DNA of 64,000 bases from Arthrobacter sp. B1805 (lineage in GTDB: Bacteria; Actinomycetota; Actinomycetes; Actinomycetales; Micrococcaceae): assembly GCF_002929745.1 (NCBI RefSeq), contig NZ_PJIQ01000010.1, forward strand, positions 1 to 64,000. The letters run 5' to 3'. The stretch's first letter is position 1; each line of letters starts with the position of its first letter. Shown in pieces: positions 3,487-27,220 of this stretch. A model generated the notes under the pieces. It was given only the letters and a program-made list of their open reading frames with translations. It made no database searches and was not told the DNA's origin. The position numbers and the translations under genes are program-made.

Positions 3487-4706
3487 ACAGGTACCTCCGA
3501 AGCGGGCGTGCGGGTGAGTCGGGCGAACCCGGTGAGGCTGGCGACGGCGAGCACCATGAGCGCGGCGAGACTGACGAGCAGGATCGGGAAGTCCAAGCCC
3601 AGGTAGGCAGTGAGTGGGCCGACGCTGGCACCGAGGAACAGCACGAATCCGTTGAGCGCCATCCCACCGGCCCGGTTCGGGGCGGCGGTCTCGCCGAACA
3701 GGGTGATCATCGCGGGCACCGCGAGCGCGACCCCAGTGACTCACACGAGACTCGCCAGCGCCGTGCCCGCGAGGGATGCCGAGAGTGCGGCTTCGATCAG
3801 CAGCCCAATCGCGGCGAGGGCGAACCCGGCACGTGCAACCCCCGCGCCGCCGAGACGCTTCGCAATAGCGCCCGCGAAGAGGGAGGCGAACATGCCCGGC
3901 AGCCCGACGAGGCGGAGCCAGATCACCTGCGATGAGTCCAGGCAGAGGTCGGTCAGGTGCGGGCCGAGGCCGGTGTACATGCCGACGAACGACAACAGCA
4001 GCGTTAGGTGCGCGAGGCTCAGTAGCAGCACCGAGGGGCGTGTGGCGACCCTCCCGACTACGGCGAAGCGACGCACCAGGCTCGCATCGTCTCTGCGACT
4101 GTGCGGCTCGGTGACGAGCACGGCGACGCCGATCATGCCGAGGCCGAGCATGATGCCGGAGAGGATGAACACCCACTGCCAGCCCAACGTCAGGCTGAGC
4201 GCGGAGGCGAGTACTTGGCCTGCGATCCCGGCAACGAGGAATGCCGTCGACATGGCCCCGATCGCCGTTGCCCGACGCTTCAGCGGGGTCGCTTCGGCCA
4301 GATACGCGAGCGCAACCGGCGCGAAACTCGACGCCATCACCCCCTGCACCCCGCGCAGCGCAGCAAGCATCGGCACCGTGGAGGCGAAGCCGCAGGCGAT
4401 GGTCGCGACGGTGAGATACACCAGGCCGATGAGCATGATCCGCTTCCGCCCGTACTGATCGGCCAACGGCCCCCAGATCAGGAACCCGACCGCATAGCAC
4501 ACGCTGAACACCGTCGAGAGCGCGAACGTCACATCAGAGCCGAGTTCCGCACCGATCGGGGCGATCAGCGGGATTGCCGCGTACAACTGCGTGAGCACCA
4601 GCAGCGCCGTGACCACGAGCAGCACGACCACGCCGTTCCCTGCCGGGTGCTCGCGCGCCTCGCCTGCTCCCGCTATCTGTTCCGTCGAGTTCGCAGACAC
4701 CACCAC
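3483..4706 (-). pseudogene. MFS efflux transporter with internal TGA
   Basis: The first 321 residues show an MFS drug/proton antiporter: N-terminal helix TALLVLTQLYAAIPLIAPIG, then the loop GPLADQYGRKRIM between helices 2 and 3. Codon 322 is TGA (3741-3743). The same frame then continues with VTGVALAVPAMITLFGE to a natural end at 3483, giving about 406 residues in total. This is a single nonsense change in an otherwise intact inner-membrane exporter. Its 3' end overlaps the NmrA-like gene by ATGA. The divergent TetR gene (4806-5390) with operators between them is the expected repressor. Readthrough or a sequencing error are alternatives to inactivation. Confidence 0.85.
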
Positions 4707-4709
4707 TCC

Positions 4710-4733
4710 AAATCCAACGTTTCCGTTGGATTT
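4710..4733. promoter_or_regulatory. TetR-type operator, copy 1
   Basis: A perfect palindrome with 10-nt arms AAATCCAACG / CGTTGGATTT around a 4-nt spacer lies 4-27 nt upstream of the MFS start, in the divergent MFS/TetR intergenic region. Position and symmetry suit binding by the TetR protein encoded at 4806. Confidence 0.75.
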
Positions 4734-4760
4734 GACTGTAGTAGGCTAACCGCGAAGACG

Positions 4761-4805: not shown

Positions 4806-5390
4806 ATGGGCTGGGATGTTGAGGGCAGGAAGCGCCGCATCCTCGACGCGGCGGTGGCCGAGTTCGCCGCGCACGGGCCGCACGGCACGACCATCGAGCG
4901 CATCGCCAAGGCCGCCGGGGTGAACAAGGAGCGCGTCTACACGCACTTCGGGGGCAAGGACAGACTTTTCGCCACCGTACTGCGCGAGGAACTGGCGAAG
5001 GTAGCCCGCGACGTGCCCGTCGAATCATTCGCAACCGAGGACGTGGGCGACTACGCCGGGCGCGTCTACGACTACCACCGCGAGCACCCCGAACTCGGCA
5101 GGCTCATGCGCTGGGAAGGGCTCGTCTTCGACACCGAAGTACCCGACGAGGCCGAGCGGCGCGAATACTACGGATACAAAGTCGCCGCCATGACCGACGG
5201 ACAGGCCAAGGGCACAGTAACGAGCGACCTCGACGCCGACCACCTGATGTTCCTCGTGCTCTCACTCGCCGGATGGTGGTCAGCGGTACCGCAGGTCGCC
5301 CGCATGATCACCGGAGCCGAGAGCGACGCCGAACACGCACGCCGCCGTGCCTCCGTCGTCACCGCTGCCCGAAGACTCATCGGGCAGTAA
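4806..5390 (+). CDS. TetR-family regulator
   Basis: 194 residues. The N-terminal HTH spans about 10-55 (ILDAAVAEFAAHG, then TTIERIAKAAGVNKERVYTHF, with the usual YxHF ending). The C-terminal ligand-binding domain contains the pattern found in TetR proteins of the TetR_C_33 type. ATG at 4806 is chosen because GGGAGGTGG lies 7 nt upstream and homology starts there. Divergent from the MFS-NmrA-AraC operon, with two shared palindromic operators between; it probably represses both directions. Confidence 0.9.
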   Translation: MGWDVEGRKRRILDAAVAEFAAHGPHGTTIERIAKAAGVNKERVYTHFGGKDRLFATVLREELAKVARDVPVESFATEDVGDYAGRVYDYHREHPELGRLMRWEGLVFDTEVPDEAERREYYGYKVAAMTDGQAKGTVTSDLDADHLMFLVLSLAGWWSAVPQVARMITGAESDAEHARRRASVVTAARRLIGQ

Positions 5391-5617
5391 TCAGGTCACG
5401 AAGTTCGCCGAGAAGACTAGTCACTTCATCGAACCGAACTCCGAAAGTTCCCTCGAACTTTGTGACGCCAACTCTTGCCAGCGACACTCTGTGCGACGCT
5501 CTCGCGCTGACGCTCGGCTCCATCAGTCATCTGCCCCCTATCTCAGTGAGGCACGTATTTTACGGCGGGGCCGTAGTGCGCACCTCTCTCACGAGACGAC
5601 TCGTGAGGGAGGCCAGA
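5391..5617. other. Gene-free leader of the relaxase gene, possible oriT
   Basis: No gene is seen. GAACT-CCGAA-AGTTC (5436-5450) and a perfect 8-bp inverted repeat with 4-nt loop, CTCACGAG-ACGA-CTCGTGAG (5588-5607), lie just before the relaxase start. MobF relaxases often act on an oriT next to their gene, so this segment is the natural candidate. No nic site can be assigned by eye. Confidence 0.35.
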
Positions 5618-8600
5618 GTGAAGGGTGGAGTGAAGCTGTTCCACGGCAGCGGTGCTGCCGCGCGCGCCTATGTCGAGGCCGACCGCTCCCGCGCTGACGA
5701 GTACTACCTCGGCGCAGACCAGGCCGTGGCCGAGTACGCCGTGATCGACGCGACCGGCGAGGTCACCGCTGCTCGGTCGCTGTCGGCGGATGAGTACGAA
5801 GCCTGGGTCGATTGGGTGAACCCGGACACCGGGGAGTCGATGGGTACCCCGCGCAAGCCGGGCAAGGTGCGTCGGGGGTCGCCGTTGTTCGCGGAGATGA
5901 CGATCAACGCGCCGAAGAGCCTGTCGGTCGCCGCCGCACTCCACCCGGACGTGTCCGAGGCGTTGGACGCGACGCAGCGGGATGCGGCGCGGGAGATTCA
6001 GCACTTCCTTGGTCAGCATTCGGTCACGTTGGCGGGGCCGCGCGGCGCGCAGGAGGTGCTGCCGGTCGAGCACATGCAGACCGTCGCGATCACGCACAAG
6101 ACGAGTCGTGCGGGTGATCCGCACCGGCATATCCATTTCCAGATTGGCACGAGGGTGTGGGCGGGCGGGAAGTGGCGGGCGCTGACCACGGCGGCGTTGT
6201 TCCAGCAGCAGGGCGCGATCCGTGCTCTCGGTACGGCGGTGATCGCCGCGCACCCCCAGCTCGCCGCCACGCTCTCCGAGCATGGCCTGACCCTCGACCC
6301 CGTAAGCGGTGAGGTTGTGGAGTTGGAGCCGTTCAACGCCGTCATGTCGAAGCGGTCGGCGCAGATCAGACGCAACCTGGAACGCATGGAGGCCGAGTGG
6401 CAAGCGAAGCATCCCGGCGAGACGCCCGGCCCGGTGTTGACCGCTCGGATGCAGGACGCGGCGTGGGCGTTCCAGCGGCCCGGCAAGAAACCGGCGGACT
6501 TGAAGAACGAGCAGTGGTGGCAGCAGGAACTCCGAGACGCCGGCTACCACCCCGAGAGCTTGCAGCACCCCGACACCGTTGCGCCGGCATCGCTGGATGA
6601 CCTCAGCGTGCAACAGGTCGCCAGTCGTGCGCTGGATCGCTGCGCGGCGGCTGCATCGACCTGGACACCGCACACCGTGCGAGAGCACGTCACCCGCATC
6701 ACCACCGAGGCAGGCGTGCAAGCGACCCCGGCGGAGTTGCGCGAGTTCATCGACCTCGCCACCGGACTCGCCGCCTCGGATTGTTTCTCGGTGCTGCCGC
6801 CGGGCATGGTGCAACCCGAGCACGTCGCCCACCTCACCAGCCTTGGCGTCGTCGCCGCCGAGACCGCACTCCGCGACCAACTCACCGCCGCGACGCCGGA
6901 ACGGGAGCCGAAGCACCCCGACGTGACCGACGCTGCGCAAGCCGCCGGACTCGACACCGGGCAGACCGTGGCCGCCGCTGCCGTCGCCTCGACCAACCCG
7001 CTCGTGATTGTCGAGGGCGCGGCGGGCGCAGGCAAGACCACCATGCTCGGCGTCGCCATCGAGGTTGCAGCCGAGCACGGGCGATCCTCGCGGGTGGTTG
7101 CGCCGACGTTGCGTGCGGCGCAGGTCGCCCACGAAGAACTCGGCGTGCCCGCAACCTCCGTCGCGGCGCTCGTGTATGCGCATGGGTGGCGGTGGAACGA
7201 GGACGGCGTATGGACACGCCTCGCACCCGGCGACACCGACCCTGCAACCGGGAACATCTACACCGGCCCACCAAACGACGCCGTGCTGTCGCGGGGTGAG
7301 CGGGTGATCGTGGACGAAGCGGGGATGCTCGACCAGGACACCGCCCTCGCTCTGCTGACCGTCACCGCCGAGGCAGGCGCGTCGGTCGCGTTCGTGGGCG
7401 ACCGGGCGCAGCTCCCGGCGGTCGGGCGCGGCGGGGTGCTCGACATGGCCGCCCAGATTCGTGGCCGTACCTACGACATGACCGAACTCCACAGGTTCAC
7501 CGATGCCGAGTATGCGGCGTTGACGTTGGTCATGCGTGACCGGGAGCACCCCGGCGACGTGTTCGACCGACTCGCCACGATGGGCCTCGTGACCTTGCAT
7601 GCCGACGAGGAAGCGGCCCGCGAGCACATCACCGCCCACGCCCACGACGGCGAAGCGATCACCGTCGCCACCAACGACGAGGCCACCGAGCTGAACGAGC
7701 ACATCCGCGCCGGGCGGGTCGAGCGCGGCGAGGTCGACGACACTATGACGACGACCGGCAGCGACGGGCTGAGCATCGGCGCTGGCGACCTGATCCAGAC
7801 CCGGAAGAACAGCAGCGACCTCGGCGTGGCAAACCGGCAGCAATGGATCGTGCAGCATGTGACCGACGAGGGCAGCGTCTACGCCCGCGAAGTCAGCGGC
7901 GGAGGCAAGCACAGCCGCACCGTCGCCCTCCCCGCCGAGTACGTGAGCGAGTGGGCGCACCTGTCGTATGCCGCGACCGCCTACGGCGTCCAAGGCGCAA
8001 CCGTCGATGCCTCCCACACGGCCTTGTCGGAGGCGACGAGCGCGGCAGGCGTCTACGTCGGCATGACGAGAGGCCGCCAACAGAACCAACTCCACGTCGT
8101 CGCCGCTGATATGGCGGATGCGCGGGCGCGGTTCGTTGAGGCGATGGAACGCGACCCGGCAGACCGTGGCCTCGACCACGCCACCGCCCAAGCCATCGAC
8201 GCCGTGCAAGGCCTCGTCAGCGATGGCCCCGTGCAGCTCATCACCGAAGAACTCGCCCGCCTCACCGCCGAAGCCGAACGAGCCGAACGTGCGGCGGAAC
8301 GCTGGGAGCAGACCGCTGCCAGGTTCGACGCCCAGCGCGCAACACACAAGACCGAGGACGACGAGCACGCCGACGTGCTCCGCCACGCCGAGGACGAGGC
8401 GGCGCGCATCCGTGCCGAAATCGCGGAACCGTTGACGGTGCAGGCCGAGGCAGACGGCACCACCTATCTCGATGCTGTCGAGCGCGAGGCCGCCGCAAGC
8501 AGCCGACTCGCCACCGTCGGCAGGCTCGGCAGGCGCAAGGCCCGCGCGGAGCACCGCCAGACGAGCGAGCACACCCGGACGGTTCGGGCACGGGTGCGCG

Positions 8601-9073
8601 AAACATGGGGCGAACCACCCCGCACCACCGACACCCTGCCCGAGTGGGCGGCACGACAGGCCGAGCGTCGCGCCGAGGCCGATCCCCGCGTGATCGACGC
8701 CGCCCAGCACGTCGAGGCCGCGCGAGCCGACCGTGACGAGTTGCGGCAGCGGCACGAGCAGGAACGCCGGGCGTTGCTGGTCAGCGAGTACGGGCCGCAG
8801 GCGGTGATGCGCCACCGGGTCGGGATGCGCCTGCCGAACCCAGCACAGCAAGCAGGACAGGCGCACCAGCAAGCCACCGCGCTCCGAGCCGAGGCCGACT
8901 ACCTCCGCGCGCTACCGATCCGCGACGCCGCCGCACGGATCGAAACCACCCGCGCCGAGCACGAAGCAAGGCAGCAAGCACTCGCCGAACGCGAACGGCA
9001 ACTCCGCGAGCCGACCGAACGCGACCCGCGGCGCAACGACCCGCGACATGACGGGCCAGCACGCGGCCTATGA
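5618..9073 (+). CDS. traA: MobF relaxase-helicase (TraA/TrwC-like)
   Basis: 1,151 residues. It nicks and unwinds plasmid DNA at oriT for conjugation. The N-terminal TrwC relaxase domain has tyrosines at about 29-30 (DEYYLG) and the metal-binding histidines H169, H171 and H173 (HRHIH). The middle is a RecD/TraI-type superfamily 1 helicase: Walker A GAAGAGKT at 467-474, VDEAG at 565-569, GDRAQLPAVG after it, and YVGMTRGR at 813-820. The C-terminal 250 residues are charged, coiled-coil and Arg/Glu-rich. GTG 5618 is preferred because GAGGGAGG lies upstream and homology begins at once with KLFHGSG. The type IV channel genes that would serve it are at 34-45 kb. Confidence 0.93.
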   Translation: MKGGVKLFHGSGAAARAYVEADRSRADEYYLGADQAVAEYAVIDATGEVTAARSLSADEYEAWVDWVNPDTGESMGTPRKPGKVRRGSPLFAEMTINAPKSLSVAAALHPDVSEALDATQRDAAREIQHFLGQHSVTLAGPRGAQEVLPVEHMQTVAITHKTSRAGDPHRHIHFQIGTRVWAGGKWRALTTAALFQQQGAIRALGTAVIAAHPQLAATLSEHGLTLDPVSGEVVELEPFNAVMSKRSAQIRRNLERMEAEWQAKHPGETPGPVLTARMQDAAWAFQRPGKKPADLKNEQWWQQELRDAGYHPESLQHPDTVAPASLDDLSVQQVASRALDRCAAAASTWTPHTVREHVTRITTEAGVQATPAELREFIDLATGLAASDCFSVLPPGMVQPEHVAHLTSLGVVAAETALRDQLTAATPEREPKHPDVTDAAQAAGLDTGQTVAAAAVASTNPLVIVEGAAGAGKTTMLGVAIEVAAEHGRSSRVVAPTLRAAQVAHEELGVPATSVAALVYAHGWRWNEDGVWTRLAPGDTDPATGNIYTGPPNDAVLSRGERVIVDEAGMLDQDTALALLTVTAEAGASVAFVGDRAQLPAVGRGGVLDMAAQIRGRTYDMTELHRFTDAEYAALTLVMRDREHPGDVFDRLATMGLVTLHADEEAAREHITAHAHDGEAITVATNDEATELNEHIRAGRVERGEVDDTMTTTGSDGLSIGAGDLIQTRKNSSDLGVANRQQWIVQHVTDEGSVYAREVSGGGKHSRTVALPAEYVSEWAHLSYAATAYGVQGATVDASHTALSEATSAAGVYVGMTRGRQQNQLHVVAADMADARARFVEAMERDPADRGLDHATAQAIDAVQGLVSDGPVQLITEELARLTAEAERAERAAERWEQTAARFDAQRATHKTEDDEHADVLRHAEDEAARIRAEIAEPLTVQAEADGTTYLDAVEREAAASSRLATVGRLGRRKARAEHRQTSEHTRTVRARVRETWGEPPRTTDTLPEWAARQAERRAEADPRVIDAAQHVEAARADRDELRQRHEQERRALLVSEYGPQAVMRHRVGMRLPNPAQQAGQAHQQATALRAEADYLRALPIRDAAARIETTRAEHEARQQALAERERQLREPTERDPRRNDPRHDGPARGL

Positions 9074-9727: not shown

Positions 9728-9744
9728 ACAGCACGCCGCCGGGC

Positions 9745-10546
<802 letters not shown>

Positions 10547-19911: not shown

Positions 19912-21045
19912 TCAATTCCCATTCCCTCCTGCGAGATCCACCTCGCCAGCTTTAGATAGGATGCGGGTTGTTGCACTAGGGGTGAGATCGCGTTTCAGTG
20001 CGTAGTAAAGCTCGCGAGTGACGAACCGTTTGAGGCTGCGAATGGCGTCCGCGGAAGAGTGCCCCTGGGCGCGTTTACGGTCGCGATATGCCTGGGATCG
20101 CTGGTCGTAGCGCAACCGACAGATGGTCACGAGGTAGATCGCACGGTTGGCACGGCGGTTCCCGCCACGGTGCAGTCTCATCCGGTGAGTTTTGCCGGAA
20201 GACACGGGTATCGGGGCGACTCCGCAGAGCCGGGCGAAGGCTGCCTCGCTCGGGAAGCGGTCGATGTTCTGCCCCGCAGTGACCAGGAGTTGAGCCACGG
20301 TGACGGGTCCGACTTGAGGCAACGCTGCCGTTGTTGGGGCGACCGCTTCAACAAGTTTGGTGATGTGCTTCTCGGTTGCGTTGATTTCAGCGGTCAGGTT
20401 GAAGATGCGCCGACCGAGTTCTCGGAGCGTGTATTTCACCGCATGATTGGGCTCGTCCAGACGGGTACTGTCTGGGCGTAGCGCGCGGGCTTGAGTGGCT
20501 TTACCCTCGAGGGTCTTAGCGTCGAGCTGCTCACGCATGCCATTCGGAGCGGTGATCAGCACGTCGCGTAACTGCACAAGGGCCGCCGACCGTGATTTCA
20601 CGGCTGAGTCTCGCAGCAGGTGCAGGTTACGGATAGCTTCGACCGCGCCGGTAGTGTCCTTCGCCGGTGAGGAGCATTCGCCCGACATGACTTTTCGCGC
20701 CGCGGCTTCAGCGTCGATGGCATCGTTCTTGCCTGAGCGGCTTCGGGTAAGGCGGTGTCCCCGATTCACTTCGACAACATCTATGCCGGCGGCTAACAAA
20801 TGACGAGTAAGACCTGCCCCGTAGGAGCCGGTGCACTCAACGCCAGCGGCGTTGATGATGCCGTAACCGGCCGCCCAGTCCAGAAGCTGCTGGTAACCGG
20901 GAAGGTCAGTGGTGAATTGCTTGTCACCCAGGAGGACGCCGTGCTGGTCCAGCACGGCAGCGTGATGCAGCTGCGAGTGGGTATCCACGCCAATCGTGAC
21001 GGCGGTTACCGGCTGGGTAGTCGTTTCAGTCGTTGCAAGGCTCAT
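19912..21045 (-). CDS. IS110 transposase (DEDD)
   Basis: 377 residues. N-terminal RuvC-like DEDD domain: D21 (IGVDTH), E70 (GVECTGSYG), D108 and D111 (KNDAIDAEAA). C-terminal transposase_20 domain with LPQVGPVTVAQLL and the serine-containing region GVAPIPVSSGKTHRMRLHRGGNRRANRA. Full length for the IS110 group, so it may be active. ATG 21045 is used; the upstream open frame is non-coding leader. Confidence 0.93.
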   Translation of the reverse strand: MSLATTETTTQPVTAVTIGVDTHSQLHHAAVLDQHGVLLGDKQFTTDLPGYQQLLDWAAGYGIINAAGVECTGSYGAGLTRHLLAAGIDVVEVNRGHRLTRSRSGKNDAIDAEAAARKVMSGECSSPAKDTTGAVEAIRNLHLLRDSAVKSRSAALVQLRDVLITAPNGMREQLDAKTLEGKATQARALRPDSTRLDEPNHAVKYTLRELGRRIFNLTAEINATEKHITKLVEAVAPTTAALPQVGPVTVAQLLVTAGQNIDRFPSEAAFARLCGVAPIPVSSGKTHRMRLHRGGNRRANRAIYLVTICRLRYDQRSQAYRDRKRAQGHSSADAIRSLKRFVTRELYYALKRDLTPSATTRILSKAGEVDLAGGNGN

Positions 21046-21200
21046 GCGTACTCGTTCCTGTCCATGAAAAACTTCGGCGAACACGGATGACCGGGCCGGG
21101 CGGACAAAGCACTGAAGAGCCCTAATTCGCCACGTTCCTATCAAGTCACACCCCGTCCGGCCCGGTCGCCATAGGTGGGCGGCAGGGAAGGCGAGCCGAC
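21046..21200 (-). ncRNA. Candidate IS110 bridge RNA region
   Basis: The leader between the element end and the transposase start contains a strong inverted repeat: GTCCGGCCCGGTC at 21155-21167 pairs with GACCGGGCCGG at 21089-21099, enclosing about 55 nt. IS110-group elements are known to encode a bridge RNA in this position that guides target and donor DNA. The exact RNA ends and guide loops are not determined here. Confidence 0.5.
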
Positions 21201-21342
21201 AGCTCTCCACCTGGACAGTTCCGGCACCGATGGTGCCGGTCGTCAGCTAGCGGGTAAGTCAGGAACGCTCCCTGCCACCTGTCACCCATCCTGCCTCAGT
21301 GCGCTAGCGGGGGAGGCCGCCGCGCCAACTCGGACACCGGCC

Positions 21343-21385: not shown

Positions 21386-22420
21386 TTACGGTCGGTAGGC
21401 GGTCTTTTCGTTTTTGACGCATTCAGCGAGCTGGCCGGTGTTCACCAGTTGGGTGAGTAGGTAGGCGAGCTTGCTCGTGGGGTCAGCTTTGCGGGCTTTG
21501 GTGAGGTACTGGGCGGCGATGGAGGACCGGCCTTTGTACCAGTTGATCCAGCCGAGGAACGCGAACAGGGGTGCGCGGGCTCCGGAAGGGGTATGCCGGA
21601 GCAGTTCGATGATGAGTTCCTGGACGGCATCCACACGGTTCCAGTCCGGGGTTCCTGTGTACTTGCCGAGGAACACGTCAGCGAAGGTGCCCAGGTCATC
21701 GTCTGCGCTGATGGTGTCTGCAATGATCCGGTCCCGCAGCGCTGGAGTGTGCAGGGCGGCGATGAGCTGCAGGGCGGTTTCTTTGTCCGGTTCGGCACCG
21801 AGGCTTTCCTGCCACAGTGCCCGGTTCTCGGTCATGACCGGGGCGGTCCAGTCTGTGGGGTCCTCGATCACCCATCCGGTGATGATGTCCGCGACCCGGT
21901 CAACGTTCGTGTCGTCGCCGGTGTAGTCGGGATTCGCGGCTGTTTCCCGTGTGGTCGTGGAGCCTTCGAACACCATGTGAGCGCTGAGTGCGCTGTCGGT
22001 GATTTCTTCCAGCGAGCGGGAGGTGCAGCAGTCGTCGTCGTCGCAGAAGTAGGTCATCCACTCGGTGGAGGTCACGAGCCAGCTGTCTCTGATGGGCATC
22101 CCGGCGGTGTCCAGCAGCTCGTCAATCACATTGGCGTGGTCGCCGTAGGGTTTGGTGCCGTCGATGGTCGCTCGGTCGGTGTAGACAGCGAGCAGGACAC
22201 CGTCAGCGTGGACGTCGTGGGACAGGTAGCCGAGGACCGTCTGGGCGAACAGTGCCGGGTCTGTGTCCTGCTGGGGTACGTCAATCCGCATGGTGGCACC
22301 GACCTGCTTACCGCGCAGGGTCAGGAACACGAACGAATCTGCGGGGGTGAACCCGAGGTGGTGCGGGATGTAGGCCAGAATGTCGGCTGCGGATGAGACG
22401 GAGATGGGTGTCTTGCGCAT
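21386..22420 (-). CDS. DUF4192 protein
   Basis: 344 residues. The N-terminal phrase ADILAYIPHHLGFTPADSFVFL is the DUF4192 hallmark (many relatives read LLAxVPxLLGFxPxxSLV). A cysteine pair occurs in CDDDDCCTS. The biochemical role of DUF4192 is not established; it is common in Actinobacteria and on their plasmids. ATG 22420 follows AAAAGGAGCAAC. It is preceded by a long leader whose structure is shared with the leaders of the next two genes upstream (24275 and 25037). Confidence 0.85.
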   Translation of the reverse strand: MRKTPISVSSAADILAYIPHHLGFTPADSFVFLTLRGKQVGATMRIDVPQQDTDPALFAQTVLGYLSHDVHADGVLLAVYTDRATIDGTKPYGDHANVIDELLDTAGMPIRDSWLVTSTEWMTYFCDDDDCCTSRSLEEITDSALSAHMVFEGSTTTRETAANPDYTGDDTNVDRVADIITGWVIEDPTDWTAPVMTENRALWQESLGAEPDKETALQLIAALHTPALRDRIIADTISADDDLGTFADVFLGKYTGTPDWNRVDAVQELIIELLRHTPSGARAPLFAFLGWINWYKGRSSIAAQYLTKARKADPTSKLAYLLTQLVNTGQLAECVKNEKTAYRP

Positions 22421-22682
22421 GATGTGTTGCTCCTTTTCGCGGTGGGGTGAGGTGCTTGTGGTGGTCCAGCAGTTGGTCTCTCCCCCGTTGTTTTTGCCTG
22501 CTGGCAAGCTTGCTTGCTTGGTCCCGACGGAGCCGGGTCAACCCCGCAGGGGCAAGGAAACAGAAAGTCCGGCAAGGAAATAAGCGACGTAGGAGCGCCG
22601 TCCGGAGATTCTGGGGCCGCAGCAGCGCAGCTGTTGACCTGGTGGAGCGGGGCCACATAATCCGTAGGACAGCAGCAAAAAA
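22421..22682 (-). promoter_or_regulatory. Structured leader, copy A
   Basis: A 260-nt leader of the DUF4192 gene. Core hairpin at 22613-22561 (minus sense): CAGA...TCTG outer stem, TCCGG...CCGGA inner stem, loop containing GGCGCTCCTACGTCGC. Downstream comes CCAGCAGGC, then GGGGGAGAG, then CTGCTGG and the RBS. The far upstream end has TTTTGCTGCTGTCC (22680-22667). Copies B and C share the layout. Confidence 0.7.
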
Positions 22683-22815
22683 CGCCGTAGGCAGATCAGC
22701 GGGGACGGACGCAACCGCCAGGGAGCGGCCGGCACCGTACACAGTCCGGAGCGCCAGCGCAGGACCGTTTGGGTGGGAGGGCAGGTGAGGCCTGCTACTG
22801 TCTTCGTCGGGTAGT

Positions 22816-22837
22816 GCCCCGTCCGTTTGGGCGGGGC
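22816..22837 (-). terminator. Terminator after ParB-like gene
   Basis: GCCCCGTCC-GTTT-GGGCGGGGC forms a nearly perfect 9-bp stem with a 4-nt loop, 17 nt beyond the stop at 22854, followed on the minus strand by ACTACCCG. Confidence 0.65.
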
Positions 22838-22853
22838 GCCCTTCCCTTGTTGG

Positions 22854-24275
22854 TTAGCCGGCTTCGGCGTACTGGGTTTCCTCGGCGATCAGGTCTTCCT
22901 CGTCCAGGTGCACGTCCTCGAAGGTTTCCGTGTCTTCTTTTGCGGTGTTTGCTTTGTCGGTGGCCATGGCGTGGTCGGTGATGATGCTTTCGACCTCGCT
23001 GAGGGTGTAGCCCCAGTCCTGGAGTTGGAACAGGTAGTAGGCGGCCTGTTGACCGGGGCGACGCCATGAGTCGCGGCTCAGGTCGGATTCGTGGGCGGCG
23101 AGCATCATGGCCAGCACCATGGTGTCGGGGTTGGTGCTGGTCTTGTCTGTGAGTTCTTTGTAGGAGCGGTAGCTGGGCTCTTTGACTCCGGCTAGCCCTG
23201 CTGCCAGTTCCTGCTTCTGCGCGGTGGCTTTGGCAACACTGTTGCCGTAGTTGGCCAGCGTGGTCGCGGTGAACCGTGCCCAGCCTGTGGGTGGGTTCTT
23301 CCGGCTCAGCAGGATCATCAGCCACTGCTGGCGTACCTCGGTCGAAGCGTCCCAGAGCTTGTTGTTCTTAATGACCTGTCGTCGTTCTTCCTTCTGTTCC
23401 TCGGTCATCGGCCCTGACTGGGTGCTGCTGCTCGGCCCACCGTAATACGGCTGCAACGTGTACCCGCTGGCTTCCCAGTTGGCGATGACCTTCCGAACGC
23501 TGACGGCGTTGTTGTTGTAGGTGACGGTGAGGACAACAGCGTTCGCGTCCTCCTCCGTTGCCGGGGTTCCATCTGGGCGGATTAGTGCGTGGGGGTACTG
23601 GTGTTCTGGCATCTGGTAGCCAGCTGCTTCGACCACTATCGTCCCGGCCTCTCTGTGCTCGACCGTGGCTTCGGCGAGCAACCGGAAGGTTTCGCGTTCA
23701 TTGCGCAGGTACTGCACGGTGTGATCGAACCGGGCGGGTTCTTGATCGAGGGTCTCCTGCAGGCGCTCCAGGGCTTCGGTGTCGTCGCTGAACTCCTCGA
23801 GCGCAGCTGACTGTTCCAGCGTCCAGCCCTGGGCCAGAGCTCTCGTGGCGGTCTCGTTGGCGCGAACCTTCAACGCGGTTTCCACGGTGGTTTTCTTCGC
23901 CCCGGTTTTCCGGGCGATCTGGGTTGCTGAGACGCCGAGCAGGGACAGCTGGTGGAACGCTTCGGCGCGGTCGTGGTCGGTGAGGGCTTGCCGGTGATCG
24001 TTCTCTACAACCTGCTTGGCGAGCCTGTCAGCCTCTGTGAGGCTCTCCCCCACGTAGACGGGGATCAGTGGCAGCTTGACCTCCACGGAGCCGATGGTGC
24101 GCCTCTGCCCGTACAGGACGTGCACTCCCCCGCTCTCGGTGCGGTACGCGACGACGGGCTGGAGGACGCCGTGCTCTTTCAGTGAGGCGAGGAACGGCTT
24201 GTCGAGCTGCATGTCAGCGCGGACGTTCGCGTCAACGGTCAGAGTGGCTGGGTCGAGCATTTCAAGGACAGTCAC
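22854..24275 (-). CDS. ParB/Spo0J-family nuclease-like protein
   Basis: 473 residues. Residues 5-100 are a ParB N-terminal domain (LTVDANVRADMQLDKPFLASLKEHGVL, then VLYGQRRTIGSVE and VVENDHRQALTDHDRAEAF). An HTH of the KorB/ParB kind follows (LLGVSATQIARKTGAKKTTV). The long C-terminal part is unique and ends acidic. It has no ParA partner next to it; the plasmid's parA pairs with the small protein at 27679. It may therefore be a KorB-like regulator or single-strand DNA protein. The GTG at 24275 is selected by AAAAGGAGCAACATC upstream, mirrored at the DUF4192 gene. Confidence 0.85.
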   Translation of the reverse strand: MTVLEMLDPATLTVDANVRADMQLDKPFLASLKEHGVLQPVVAYRTESGGVHVLYGQRRTIGSVEVKLPLIPVYVGESLTEADRLAKQVVENDHRQALTDHDRAEAFHQLSLLGVSATQIARKTGAKKTTVETALKVRANETATRALAQGWTLEQSAALEEFSDDTEALERLQETLDQEPARFDHTVQYLRNERETFRLLAEATVEHREAGTIVVEAAGYQMPEHQYPHALIRPDGTPATEEDANAVVLTVTYNNNAVSVRKVIANWEASGYTLQPYYGGPSSSTQSGPMTEEQKEERRQVIKNNKLWDASTEVRQQWLMILLSRKNPPTGWARFTATTLANYGNSVAKATAQKQELAAGLAGVKEPSYRSYKELTDKTSTNPDTMVLAMMLAAHESDLSRDSWRRPGQQAAYYLFQLQDWGYTLSEVESIITDHAMATDKANTAKEDTETFEDVHLDEEDLIAEETQYAEAG

Positions 24276-24526
24276 GATGTTGCTCCTTTTCGCGGTGGTG
24301 GTGAGGTGCCTGTGGTGGTCCAGCAGTGGCCCTCTCCCCCGTCGTTGTTTGCCTGCTGGCGGAGCTTGCGGAGCTGTGCCTGACGGAGCAGTGCTCAACG
24401 CCGTAGGTGCAAGGAGACTGGGAATGATGGAGGGAACAAGCGACGCAGGAGCGCCGGAATCATTAGTGGGCTCCGTAGCCGGCGTAGCCGGTTGACGCTG
24501 TGGAGCAGGCACGTACGATCCGAAGG
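24276..24526 (-). promoter_or_regulatory. Structured leader, copy B
   Basis: A 250-nt leader of the ParB-like gene. Core hairpin at 24467-24417 (minus sense): ACT...AGT outer stem, AATGAT...ATCATT inner stem, loop GGCGCTCCTGCGTCGC. The remaining blocks (CACGTACGATCC, CCAGCAGGC, GGGGGAGAGG, CTGCTGGACC, AAAAGGAGCAAC) match copy A or C. A frame happens to stay open through the leader, but the shared RBS points to the start at 24275. Confidence 0.7.
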
Positions 24527-24568
24527 AATCTCAATGATGTTGTCAACGCACTATTGGCCTGCCGGCGA

Positions 24569-24598
24569 GGTGTCCCGACCGGTTGTAGCCGGGACACC
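24569..24598 (-). terminator. Hairpin after the 142-residue gene
   Basis: GGTGTCCCG and CGGGACACC form a perfect 9-bp stem with a 12-nt loop, 11 nt after the stop at 24609. Confidence 0.6.
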
Positions 24599-24608
24599 CT
24601 CAGAGTTG

Positions 24609-25037
24609 TTAGCTGGTCCAACCGGGGTATGGTCTGCGGTCCGCGGCACCCAGCTCGGCTGCCGTGGCTGGGAGGTTTCCGGGACCGTCGGACTGGCCTG
24701 CCTTCCAGTGGAAGAACACTTCCTCGGTGATGGCTTCAAAGCACGCATCTTGGGAGCGGAACCAGTGCGCGTTTGTGTCGCCCTCTACATAGGTTCCGTA
24801 ACCGAACAGCTCTCCAGACTCGTCACGGGTGCGGGCCACAGCGAAGACGATCAGCGGCCAGGCGCCGGCATCCCAGCCGTCGGATCCCCAGTTCGGCAGG
24901 GCTGACCAGCCGGTGCCTTCGAGGGTTTCCATCCAGTCGTACCCGTCCCCCATCCGGTCATCGGCGGGAAGCCCAGGGGCGGCGACGGTTTCGTTGGTGT
25001 CTATGGTGGTCGTGCGGGTCATTGCTGCAACGCTCAT
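24609..25037 (-). CDS. Conserved plasmid protein of unknown function
   Basis: 142 residues, acidic, not recognised. It is Trp-rich (YDWMETLEGTGWSALPNWGSDGWDAG), then WPLIVFAVARTRDESGELFGYGTYVEGD and a C-terminal AHWFRSQDACFEAITEEVFFHWKAGQ, which suggests a small globular alpha/beta protein. ATG 25037 follows GAAGGAGCG. It carries the third copy of the structured leader and precedes the ParB-like and DUF4192 genes, so the three probably respond to the same signal. Confidence 0.65.
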   Translation of the reverse strand: MSVAAMTRTTTIDTNETVAAPGLPADDRMGDGYDWMETLEGTGWSALPNWGSDGWDAGAWPLIVFAVARTRDESGELFGYGTYVEGDTNAHWFRSQDACFEAITEEVFFHWKAGQSDGPGNLPATAAELGAADRRPYPGWTS

Positions 25038-25311
25038 GGGTTCGCTCCTTCGGTTCATAGGCAGGGCGGGAAACCTTTGGTGATCAGCGGTTCTGGTTCC
25101 CTCTCCCCCACCATGTTTTTTGCCTGCTGGCGGAGCATCGCGGAGCTGTGCCCGACGGAGGCGGAGCCAACCCGTGAGGGCAAGCGGGCAGAAGTTCGGT
25201 AAGGAAATAAGCGACGTAGGAGCGCCGAACCGAAGTCCTGGACGCGCAGCCGGCCGCAGGCCGGTTGAACCGCCGGAGCGGGCACGTATGATCCAACGGA
25301 CAGCAGCAAAA
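25038..25311 (-). promoter_or_regulatory. Structured leader, copy C
   Basis: A 270-nt leader of the 142-residue gene. Core hairpin at 25240-25189 (minus sense): CAG...CTG outer stem, TTCGGT...ACCGAA inner stem, loop GGCGCTCCTACGTCGC. It also has CACGTATGATCC, TTTTGCTGCTGTCC (25311-25298), CCAGCAGGC with an A6 run, and GGGGGAGAGG. Confidence 0.7.
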
Positions 25312-25401
25312 GACAAAGAACGCTTTACTGTCCGAGCGGACGCGAGGCCCGTATTAGTACAGGCAGGCACCGTGCCGAGCAATAGCCGGCTTCTCGGCCT
25401 C

Positions 25402-26014: not shown

Positions 26015-27220
26015 TCACGCCACCCGCGCAGGTGGTGCGGGTTTGAGCTCATATGTAGTTCCGTCGCGGAGCATGGCCCAAAGGACGTTGAGCCGACGTC
26101 TGGCCAGGGAGAGTAGCGATTGAGTGTGGGTTTTGCCCTCTGCCCGTTTGCGGTCGTAGTACGCCCGTGACGCGGTGGAACTTTTGAGGCTGGACATGGC
26201 CGCCATGTAGCAGGCCCGCAGGAGCCGACGGTCGTATCTTTGCGGTCGGTGGTGGTTGCCCCTGATTCTGCCGGAATCCTTGGGCGCCGGAGCCAGACCA
26301 GCGACGCCGGCGAGCCGGTTCACGCTTTCAAAGATGGTCAGATCCCCACCTGTAGCGCCGAGAAACTCCGCACCGAGCAGTGGGCCGAAGCCGGGCATGC
26401 TCAGCATGATCTCGGCTTGGTGATGTTCACGGAAGCGCTCCGCGATTTGTATGTCGAGGGCATCGATCTGGCTCTGAAGCTCGAGCACCTCCTGCGCGAG
26501 CTCAGCGACCATCGGTGCACCAACACGCTGAGCCGGCACCGTCGTGTACTGCGATTTCGCTGCATTGATGGCTCTTTCGGCCACATCGGCGCTGCTACGG
26601 GTTCCCTGGCTCCTGAGCCAGCTGTGCAAACGCTTCTGCCCGAGCCGGCGCAAGGCGTCGGGGGTCTGATACCGGGTGAGCAGCAACAGTCCGGCTTTGG
26701 ACCTGCTGTAATCGAAGGCCTGTTCCAGGGCTGGGAAGTATTCCAGCAGCTGTGCCCGTAACCGGTTGATCGCGCGGGTGCGGTCGCAGGCCTTGTCCGT
26801 GCGTCGGGCTGTGAGGATCCGCAGGTCAACACTGATGTCATCTCCAGTACGAACTGGTTGCAGATCCCGGCGCATGCGGGCCTGGTCGGCGATGACTGCG
26901 GCGTCCTTCGCATCAGTCTTGCCGTCCCCTCGGTAGGTCCTTGAGGCGTGATGTACCGTACGGCCCGGGATATAGAGCAGGTGTTGGTCGTGGGCTGCGA
27001 GCAGGGCAATCAGCAGTGCGGCTCCGCCGTGGTTCAGATCGACGGCCCAAACCACCTCTCCCCCGTCACCGAGCGCAGCAACGGTGCAGATCAGTTCCAG
27101 CAGGTCCGACTCGTCATTGGCAATTCGCTGAGACAACACACGGTTTCCCTGATCATCAATGACGACACAGTGGTGATGGGTTTTACCGGCATCGATCCCG
27201 GCCCACAATTTCGGCAACAT
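26015..27220 (-). CDS. IS110 transposase (DEDD)
   Basis: 401 residues. RuvC-like N-terminal domain: D10 (WAGIDAG), D61 (WAVDLNHGG), D103 and D106 (KTDAKDAAVIAD). C-terminal transposase_20 domain with SMPGFGPLLGAEFLGATGGDLTIF and GLAPAPKDSGRIRGNHHRP. Complete and probably functional. The second acidic position is Asp where element 1 has Glu. ATG 27220 follows GAAGGGAGACC. Confidence 0.93.
   Translation of the reverse strand: MLPKLWAGIDAGKTHHHCVVIDDQGNRVLSQRIANDESDLLELICTVAALGDGGEVVWAVDLNHGGAALLIALLAAHDQHLLYIPGRTVHHASRTYRGDGKTDAKDAAVIADQARMRRDLQPVRTGDDISVDLRILTARRTDKACDRTRAINRLRAQLLEYFPALEQAFDYSRSKAGLLLLTRYQTPDALRRLGQKRLHSWLRSQGTRSSADVAERAINAAKSQYTTVPAQRVGAPMVAELAQEVLELQSQIDALDIQIAERFREHHQAEIMLSMPGFGPLLGAEFLGATGGDLTIFESVNRLAGVAGLAPAPKDSGRIRGNHHRPQRYDRRLLRACYMAAMSSLKSSTASRAYYDRKRAEGKTHTQSLLSLARRRLNVLWAMLRDGTTYELKPAPPARVA

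Follow-up and report, generated by a model that had tools for sequence, protein, structure and literature searches.

Why should three neighbouring genes share a long leader with the same hairpin? The question was raised by contig NZ_PJIQ01000010.1 of Arthrobacter sp. B1805 (assembly GCF_002929745.1), of which positions 1 to 64,000 were analysed (the window). The original prediction, made from the letters of positions 22,421 to 25,311, had described a hairpin before a DUF4192 gene, a ParB-like gene and a gene for a 142-residue protein, and had interpreted it as a leader RNA, either cis-regulatory or the target of a small RNA (sRNA) or a protein, that coordinates the three genes. All three hairpins were confirmed on the − strand, as were their genes, with stems that differ by compensating changes among the three copies, and the proposal of a structure common to several plasmid genes, and likely coordinating them, was judged right. 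The earlier interpretation is nevertheless only partly supported. From sequence comparison, we consider the leaders likely to be single-stranded DNA (ssDNA) promoters of the Frpo type, for early expression in recipient cells, which would form a new actinobacterial family.

A folded element of about 200 nucleotides

The hairpin proved to be real, but it forms just the tip of a structure of ~200 nucleotides (nt) that spans most of the leader. The 168 distinct copies retained were sorted by the type of a stem, P1, into class i (GTCAA/TTGAC; 43 copies), class ii (GTCTA/TAGAC; 74), class iii (GCAAC/GTTGC; 38) and other (13). Read from the distal end towards the gene, the class ii element comprises an outer arm GTTTTTTGGYTGCTG, a mini-hairpin TCC/GGA, the block GGATNNTA, stem P0 (for example, GTGCCCG/CGGGCAC), the letters CTCC, stem P1, hairpin P2, stem P3 with the pairs described originally, the invariant tip and hairpin P4; beyond these the right arms return in the opposite order, and then come a short hairpin, CAGCARCCAAAAAAC, a leader of ~75–95 nt and the ribosome site. 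A start codon was searched for 130–260 nt past the tip and found for 128 of the 168 copies, at a near-constant median distance of 182 nt in class i (n = 37), 186 nt in class ii (n = 57) and 162 nt in class iii (n = 25).

Alignments were prepared for 44 of 55 representatives (A2, without L009, L011, L032, L035, L103, L123, L132, L138, L152, L164 and L175), for 35 of 40 class ii sequences (A3, without L059, L085, L102, L108 and L157) and for 27 of 32 class iii sequences (A4, without L032, L060, L132, L138 and L152); the pair counts taken from them cover classes ii and iii, with class i left out. In class ii, the best-sampled subclass (35 sequences, 54 pairs), the covariation score was 0.152, compared with 0.065 ± 0.004 in shuffles, none of which reached it (0/500). 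Fifteen pairs changed on both sides (9.9 in shuffles; 0/500), and 94.0% of the cells were paired (88.9% in shuffles; 0/500), a percentage that leans towards the structure, which was derived from the same alignment. Further pair types numbered 30 and were not above shuffles (30.2; 337/500). The sequences are related, and the shuffle counts are not to be read as probabilities. Sliding the structure by 1–3 columns lowered the paired cells to 36–51%. The claim of a selected secondary structure around a fixed tip was borne out. When folded as DNA, the template strand of the class ii copy L053 gave a single long hairpin with branches (−60.9 kcal/mol, z −6.3, 0/200 shuffles).

A covariance model, the building of which had been suggested originally, was obtained from 44 copies and found the window copies at 99.6–110.9 bits, a match that is partly by construction, as the three are among the 44. 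The Rfam comparison that had likewise been suggested was run with Rfam 15 on the window and on 18 related loci, and no family covers the element: at the gathering threshold nothing was returned in the window, at a lax threshold just two eukaryotic families were obtained in the region (E 4 and 4.8), and the related loci yielded none apart from tRNAs. A leader peptide was considered and rejected: of 86 representatives, 27, 41 and 23 have stops in the respective sense frames, and the spacing from the tip to the right arm of P1 is spread over all three phases.

Promoter boxes, folded strand and relaxase side

A sigma-70 scan of positions 22,400–25,400 returned three sites where 0.2 were expected. 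Each copy holds one of them, at the same place, none lies elsewhere, and all are antisense to the genes. Such antisense boxes, placed in the distal arm, score 8–10 of 12 in every class i (26/26) and class ii (22/22) representative, so that a score of at least 8 was reached by 48/48 in the antisense direction versus 1/48 in the sense direction (shuffle means 4.7 and 3.6), with a spacer of 16 nt in 47/48. Half of the representatives in the other class (6/12) also reach at least 8. Within A3, the −10 box reads TANNAT in 35/35 sequences (TACAAT 15, TAGAAT 10, TAAAAT 3, TACGAT 3, TATGAT 3 and TACTAT 1), the spacer is 16 nt in 35/35, and the −35 box is TAGACG in 23, TAGAGG in six and TAGACC in three, with three others; CATAAT and CACAAT types of −10 are also common in class i. 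The −35 box lies inside P1 and part of the spacer inside P0, and in class ii 8–9 nt separate the −10 box from the outer stem; the box and these nucleotides together face an unmatched right-hand stretch of 17–18 nt. A reading of TCCTTCGGAT as a sense −10 box was discarded as wrong, the TCC/GGA letters forming the mini-hairpin and the block reading as an antisense −10 box.

As long as the DNA is double-stranded, the boxes face away from the gene. If the template strand is folded, its distal arm takes the place of the non-template strand and its gene-side arm that of the template, so the boxes lead into the gene; in classes i and ii the fold rebuilds −35 and −10 boxes in that direction, as expected of Frpo. 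Which strand folds was assessed from mispairs, with G–T and A–C treated alike and counted where flanked by Watson–Crick pairs. On the sense strand, A–C outnumbered G–T by 90:29 in 77 representatives, by 39:9 in 39 divergent ones, and by 17:3 and 4:1 in sets of 18 and eight; the composition null from mismatched arms was 305 A–C versus 195 G–T (61%). Class ii held 51 A–C and 9 G–T mispairs in 1873 cells, or 39 and 9 parsimony steps (p 1.5e-5 versus half, 0.004 versus 61%), so G–U was not tolerated over A–C on the sense strand, as it would be in a leader RNA. A sense-strand A–C mispair corresponds to a G–T wobble in the template strand. The counts therefore speak against a sense RNA and, in class ii and in the pooled representatives, for folding of the template strand, class iii being neutral.

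Position on plasmids was examined in 13 records, 12 chosen by similarity to the leader and one by its ParB-like gene, which carry relaxase domains of PF03432 (8/13) or PF08751 (the other five). With up to three mismatches, the core motif GGCGCTCCTNCGTCGCTTNTT (21 bases) occurs in 12 of them, with 39 copies in total and 1–5, mostly three or four, per record; the motif missed the Citricoccus record, in which the model finds copies. All 39 copies lie on the strand of the relaxase gene and nearer on its upstream side, at ~3–33 kb in 38 cases and at ~106 kb in the exception (NZ_CP014572, 235375). The copies of these 12 records thus sit in the leading region, as Frpo does. Co-orientation with the relaxase gene, as on plasmid F, suggests that the genes have the transferred strand as their template. 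An exact inverted repeat resembling an origin of transfer (oriT) follows the conserved GGAGCAAGCT upstream of mobC in FB24 and CP047900 (two of three regions), and a similar but imperfect one is found upstream of mobC in the contig of the window. By analogy with other MOBP origins, the side on which this repeat lies presumably fits the direction of transfer.

These observations suggest the following course of events. Conjugation would bring the plasmid in as one strand, the probable template strand of these genes, and the leader would fold back on itself. Stem P1 would provide a double-stranded −35 box (TTGAC or TAGAC) and stem P0 the double-stranded part of the 16-nt spacer, while the −10 box and the adjoining 8–9 nt would remain unpaired, forming a bubble that the outer stem (GTTTTTTGGYTGCTG/CAGCARCCAAAAAAC in class ii) closes. 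RNA polymerase may then bind the hairpin, take the gene-side arm as template and run into the gene from start sites predicted near the hairpin base, ~85–95 nt before the start codon; in the window they would fall at about 22503–22506 for copy A and 25129–25132 for copy C, on the − strand. The putative establishment proteins (DUF4192, ParB-like, DprA and the 145-residue protein) would be made at once. Second-strand synthesis would remove the hairpin, leaving the boxes facing away from the gene, and expression would presumably stop. The invariant tip may also have a role. A bolder version, which we hold as a tentative idea and would not expect to be right in full, is that conjugative plasmids of Micrococcales independently evolved multi-copy ssDNA promoters with a pre-melted −10 bubble, whose tip (GGAAATAAGCGACGNAGGAGCGCC on the template strand) docks a dedicated factor licensing both early transcription and second-strand priming; under that docking version, plasmid SSB, a primase or a polymerase partner would be candidates.

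Several results weigh against ssDNA promoters of this type. Class iii is the weakest part: its antisense boxes score 8 in one, 7 in 16, 6 in six and lower in three of 26 representatives, and sense boxes score barely below (five at 7 and one at 8); its 45 A–C and 24 G–T cells correspond to 32 versus 19 parsimony steps, no different from composition; and no relaxase was recognised by eye at six loci of up to 8 kb each. In leaders from Microbacteriaceae, the boxes are unsupported, with antisense scores of 6–8 of 12, a 16-nt spacer in 4/7, and antisense above sense in three of the seven, equal in two and below in two. The A–C excess weakens when distinct contexts are counted (33:21, 24:8, 13:3 and 4:1 in the four sets), and stem P3a alone is near balance (23:18, or 37:32 with an earlier fixed register). 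Fold energies favour the template strand in 36/39 cases with RNA parameters and 38/39 with DNA parameters, and z-scores in 29/39, yet riboswitches for thiamine pyrophosphate (TPP) have a comparable bias in z-score (lower for the template in 20/24), and the strand comparison by energy or z-score was dropped as evidence. The TPP controls for mispairs are themselves too weak, so that the mispair test is without a clean RNA control: ad hoc pairing gave 11 GT versus 9 AC, MAFFT gave 24 versus 17 with 110 other mismatches (misaligned), and Infernal, in five of 10 alignments shown, gave 2 GU versus 0 AC of 118 pairs.

Other points on the same side concern the window itself and plasmid F. The template strand of window copy C, folded as DNA, has a minimum similar to that of L053 with a z of just −1.2 (22/200 shuffles as good). 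The MOBF-type relaxase gene of the window (5273–9073, +) and the leader genes are on opposite strands, and the copies are co-oriented with the MOBP relaxase (C1:107394-107744), ~50 kb off, only if the contig is circular; an overlap of the contig ends was looked for and none was found. The block with the three leaders is flanked by IS110-like transposase frames at 19912–21210 and 26015–27220, named by eye. Finally, a strict box scan upstream of the ssb gene of F returned no boxes, and F is no positive control for them.

Four other explanations were weighed against an Frpo-type promoter. The least improbable of them, though still improbable, is that the hairpin is a single-strand initiation site alone, which primes the second strand and holds no gene promoter. 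The logic of location would be the same, and a few copies were seen by eye before sequence without an obvious gene; going by the title of a 1997 paper by Masai and Arai, F Frpo reportedly serves both transcription and primer synthesis. One to five copies per record, mostly before a gene at a near-constant distance, nevertheless exceed what priming needs. Next comes the sense-strand cis-regulatory leader RNA (a riboswitch, or an sRNA or protein target) of the original prediction, which we now regard as very unlikely. As a folded molecule it is disfavoured by the sense-strand A–C mispairs, more frequent than G–U (51 versus 9 in class ii), by the identity of the most conserved spacer block with the antisense −10 box, by the position of the copies, leading with respect to the relaxase gene in 12/12 records with the motif, and by the lack of an Rfam match; the strong covariation, the 5′ leader location and the near-constant distance to the start codon would suit it, and a sense TTGACA in copies with an alternative upstream block could drive its transcript. 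The antisense −10 block between the stems, the placement relative to the relaxase and the mispair pattern together point to a folded ssDNA promoter rather than to a riboswitch or sRNA target.

Ranking third, and highly unlikely, is a reading in which the boxes serve double-stranded DNA as ordinary promoters of antisense or divergent transcripts, the hairpin being a separate feature. Good sigma-70 matches facing away from the gene in plain double-stranded DNA are what such promoters would look like, but the transcripts would start distally and exit the element, and both the embedding of the boxes in covarying stems, where the gene-side arm pairs with them, and the tracking of the relaxase side would be left unexplained. 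A double-stranded inverted repeat bound by a plasmid regulator, as an operator or a cruciform, has next to no probability in our estimate: operators do not resemble a nested fold of ~200 nt that includes a bubble and promoter boxes, and while the class iii ratio of A–C to G–T equals composition, as if the wobbles of neither strand counted, there is an A–C excess in the pooled classes and in class ii alone.

Copies in the window, downstream genes and distribution

With up to three mismatches, the core GGCGCTCCTNCGTCGCTTNTT occurs at three places in the window, all of them in these leaders, compared with 0.05 expected from shuffles; the model matched the same three places. Copy A (22490–22683, −) precedes the DUF4192 gene (21386–22420, −; 344 residues; PF13830, E 1.9e-38), with outer stem arms assigned from the sequence at 22490–22503 and 22670–22683 and the tip, GGCGCTCCTACGTCGCTTATTTCC, at 22576–22599. 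The model match spans 22518–22657 (99.6 bits), and the boxes (TTGACC, 16 nt, CATAAT; 22634–22661, +, antisense to the gene) have their −35 within the distal arm of P1. Copy B (24344–24548, −, outer limits approximate) precedes the ParB-like gene (22854–24275, −; 473 residues), with its tip at 24432–24455, its model match at 24374–24515 (108.6 bits) and its boxes (TTGACG, 16 nt, TACGAT) at 24492–24519 (+, antisense). The ParB-like protein matches PF02195 (E 1.9e-5, 25 bits, cut-off 26.3) and TIGR00180 (E 3e-12, 46.7 bits, cut-off 58.45), both below the cut-off. Copy C (25115–25314, −), with outer stem arms at 25115–25129 and 25301–25314, tip at 25203–25226, model match at 25146–25288 (110.9 bits) and boxes (TTGAAC, 16 nt, TATGAT) at 25265–25292 (+, antisense), precedes the 142-residue gene (24609–25037, −). 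The product of the latter has no match in Pfam or NCBIfam; homologues stand behind the same element in other genomes.

At its distal end, copy B carries an alternative block, CGTTGACAACATCATTGAGATTCC (24525–24548), in place of the poly-T outer arm, a replacement found by pattern in eight of the 168 copies, including L006, L027, L051 and L059. This block contains a perfect TTGACA in the sense direction. The MOBF-type relaxase gene of the window is a TrwC relaxase–helicase frame of 1266 residues, behind which lies a separate second TrwC-like piece (9730–9963); the frame may be truncated or interrupted.

Among 134 proteins encoded downstream of the 168 copies, the largest clusters were those of the DUF4192 protein of the window (53), the ParB-like protein (29), the family of ~145 residues (26) and DprA (10); small clusters included, by eye, two glutaredoxin-like and one SSB-like. 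The DprA, glutaredoxin and SSB domains were checked on cluster members or neighbours. Genes for ParB, DprA, glutaredoxin and SSB sit near mobF or mobC. In NZ_CP084562 the order is two hypothetical genes, DUF4192, a hypothetical gene, DprA, a hypothetical gene, ParB, glutaredoxin, a hypothetical gene, SSB, two more genes and mobF, and in FB24 it is hypothetical genes, DUF4192, a hypothetical gene, ParB, two reversed genes, mobC and the relaxase. DUF4192 follows 21 of the 26 class iii copies that have a downstream frame. Class iii copies, those of L020, L044, L054 and L058 among them, stand mostly before DUF4192 genes, in surroundings that differ among the six loci inspected, and the sequence upstream of the L054 copy resembles, by eye, the 3′ end of a tRNA gene; class iii copies are possibly remnants of islands.

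The original prediction had counted three copies, which proved too few, as the genome holds six by the motif with up to one mismatch (a seventh row, with three mismatches, looks like chance) and seven by the covariance model, including one missed by the motif at G000:C30:6233-6382 (L256). Within the genus, 21 of 38 genomes carry the core with up to one mismatch. At up to two mismatches, where some places look like chance, the family shows it in 49 of its 197 genomes, spread over 16 of 32 genera. A model search across the order returned at least seven of 198 genomes and may undercount, with 16 candidates scored per genome under strict filters. Of two leader queries, one matched 64 plasmid records at E up to 1 and the other 66 at E up to 0.01, mostly from Arthrobacter, Paenarthrobacter and Pseudarthrobacter, and among the matches listed the organisms carrying the core are mostly Arthrobacter and relatives. 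A phage origin of the element was rejected, as no exact match of the 19-base core was obtained in viral contigs.

Fifteen motif loci were judged to be chance or other repeats and excluded from later counts (L007, L038, L052, L062, L067, L072, L077, L100, L101, L125, L163, L168, L170, L173 and L174). In L038, L062 and L067, from contigs of Ruminococcus and Clostridiales metagenome-assembled genomes (gut Firmicutes), the 19-mer lies between complementary arms within similar sequence; L038 scored near chance with the model (E 0.03), and these places represent chance or another repeat family. L077 of Gordonia hydrophobica consists of three tandem copies of a short repeat, GCGCTCCTTCGTCGCTTACTCGACC, that shares the tip core. 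Two contigs labelled Vibrio cholerae 35D (WNZI01000052 and WNZI01000054; L057 and L078) carry Arthrobacter-type copies before a gene of ~148 residues and are most likely assembly contamination.

A related element was recognised by eye, with another tip hairpin, the same P3, CTTATTTC or a near form of it past the tip, and an outer stem. In a Mycetocola plasmid it stands before ParB, an ArdC-domain gene, DprA and DUF3846; a Clavibacter plasmid has it before ParB and DUF3560, and a Microbacterium plasmid before nrdH. In the Mycetocola plasmid (NZ_CP026950, L257), four leaders were located by eye at 2627–2979, 4399–4750, 5642–5938 and 6839–7132; their P3 stems vary with pairing mostly kept, and the ArdC-domain gene behind one of them is of the anti-restriction type. 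The Clavibacter leader L189 is a match of the covariance model (E 0.0019); the Microbacterium locus L190 is not. One ParB leader each from Rhodococcus and Pseudonocardia, inspected by eye, showed no such element.

Known systems and meaning

According to the accessible part of PMC9849209, in Frpo a hairpin of the incoming strand restores the −35 and −10 boxes. The leaders described here resemble the Frpo/ssi elements of F and ColIb-P9, as far as the sources at hand describe them, in standing before leading-region genes including ssb, in occurring more than once per plasmid, and in a hairpin that rebuilds both boxes on an incoming strand that would be the template. The layout of F is also alike, with ssb, ParB and psiB upstream of traM and co-oriented. 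No homology to known Frpo was detected: the 168 copies searched against the F leading region (45–67.5 kb) gave a best E of 0.68 with short pieces. The present elements further differ from F Frpo in their phylum, the invariant tip motif, the −10 bubble, the 1–5 copies per plasmid record, and a gene set with DUF4192, DprA and the 145-residue protein.

EGeRS1 of the Bacillus pLS20 family, in the accessible text of PMC8708921, consists of multi-copy structured leaders just before the ribosome site of establishment genes, and a multi-copy structure before what are presumably establishment genes was found here too. EGeRS1 is longer (420–750 bp), and in the same accessible text the authors dispute an ssDNA promoter, as the transferred strand is the non-template one and its fold lacks a promoter. 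Here, in contrast, a promoter is seen in the fold and the transferred strand would be the template, i.e. the opposite. With cis-regulatory RNAs such as the riboswitches of Rfam, the leaders share structure, covariation and a 5′ location, and they differ in wobbles that fit the template strand better and in having no Rfam match.

Going by what could be consulted of PMC9849209 and PMC11541004, the characterised ssDNA promoters are those of F and ColIb-P9, and further conjugative elements have sequence-based candidates. PMC11541004 searched known Frpo sequences and near candidates, and in its available text the terms Actinomyc, Actinobact, Arthrobacter and Micrococc occur 0 times. The sequences from that study were run on PLSDB in PMC12826799, whose available text holds Actinomyc, Actinobact and Arthrobacter 0 times. 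A literature search, from whose reach subscription papers were mostly absent, returned no paper on ssDNA promoters in actinobacteria and nothing on the leading regions of Arthrobacter conjugative plasmids.

If the leaders are ssDNA promoters, the mispair test of A–C versus G–U may offer, given a proper RNA control, a cheap means to separate structures of the transferred strand from RNA leaders. Transcription from ssDNA would become testable in a Gram-positive host, and leading regions could be oriented without a known nic site. A promoter marked in this way would allow establishment genes to be listed by DNA signature, with the DUF4192, 145-residue, ParB-like and DprA genes becoming candidates for anti-defence or establishment proteins.

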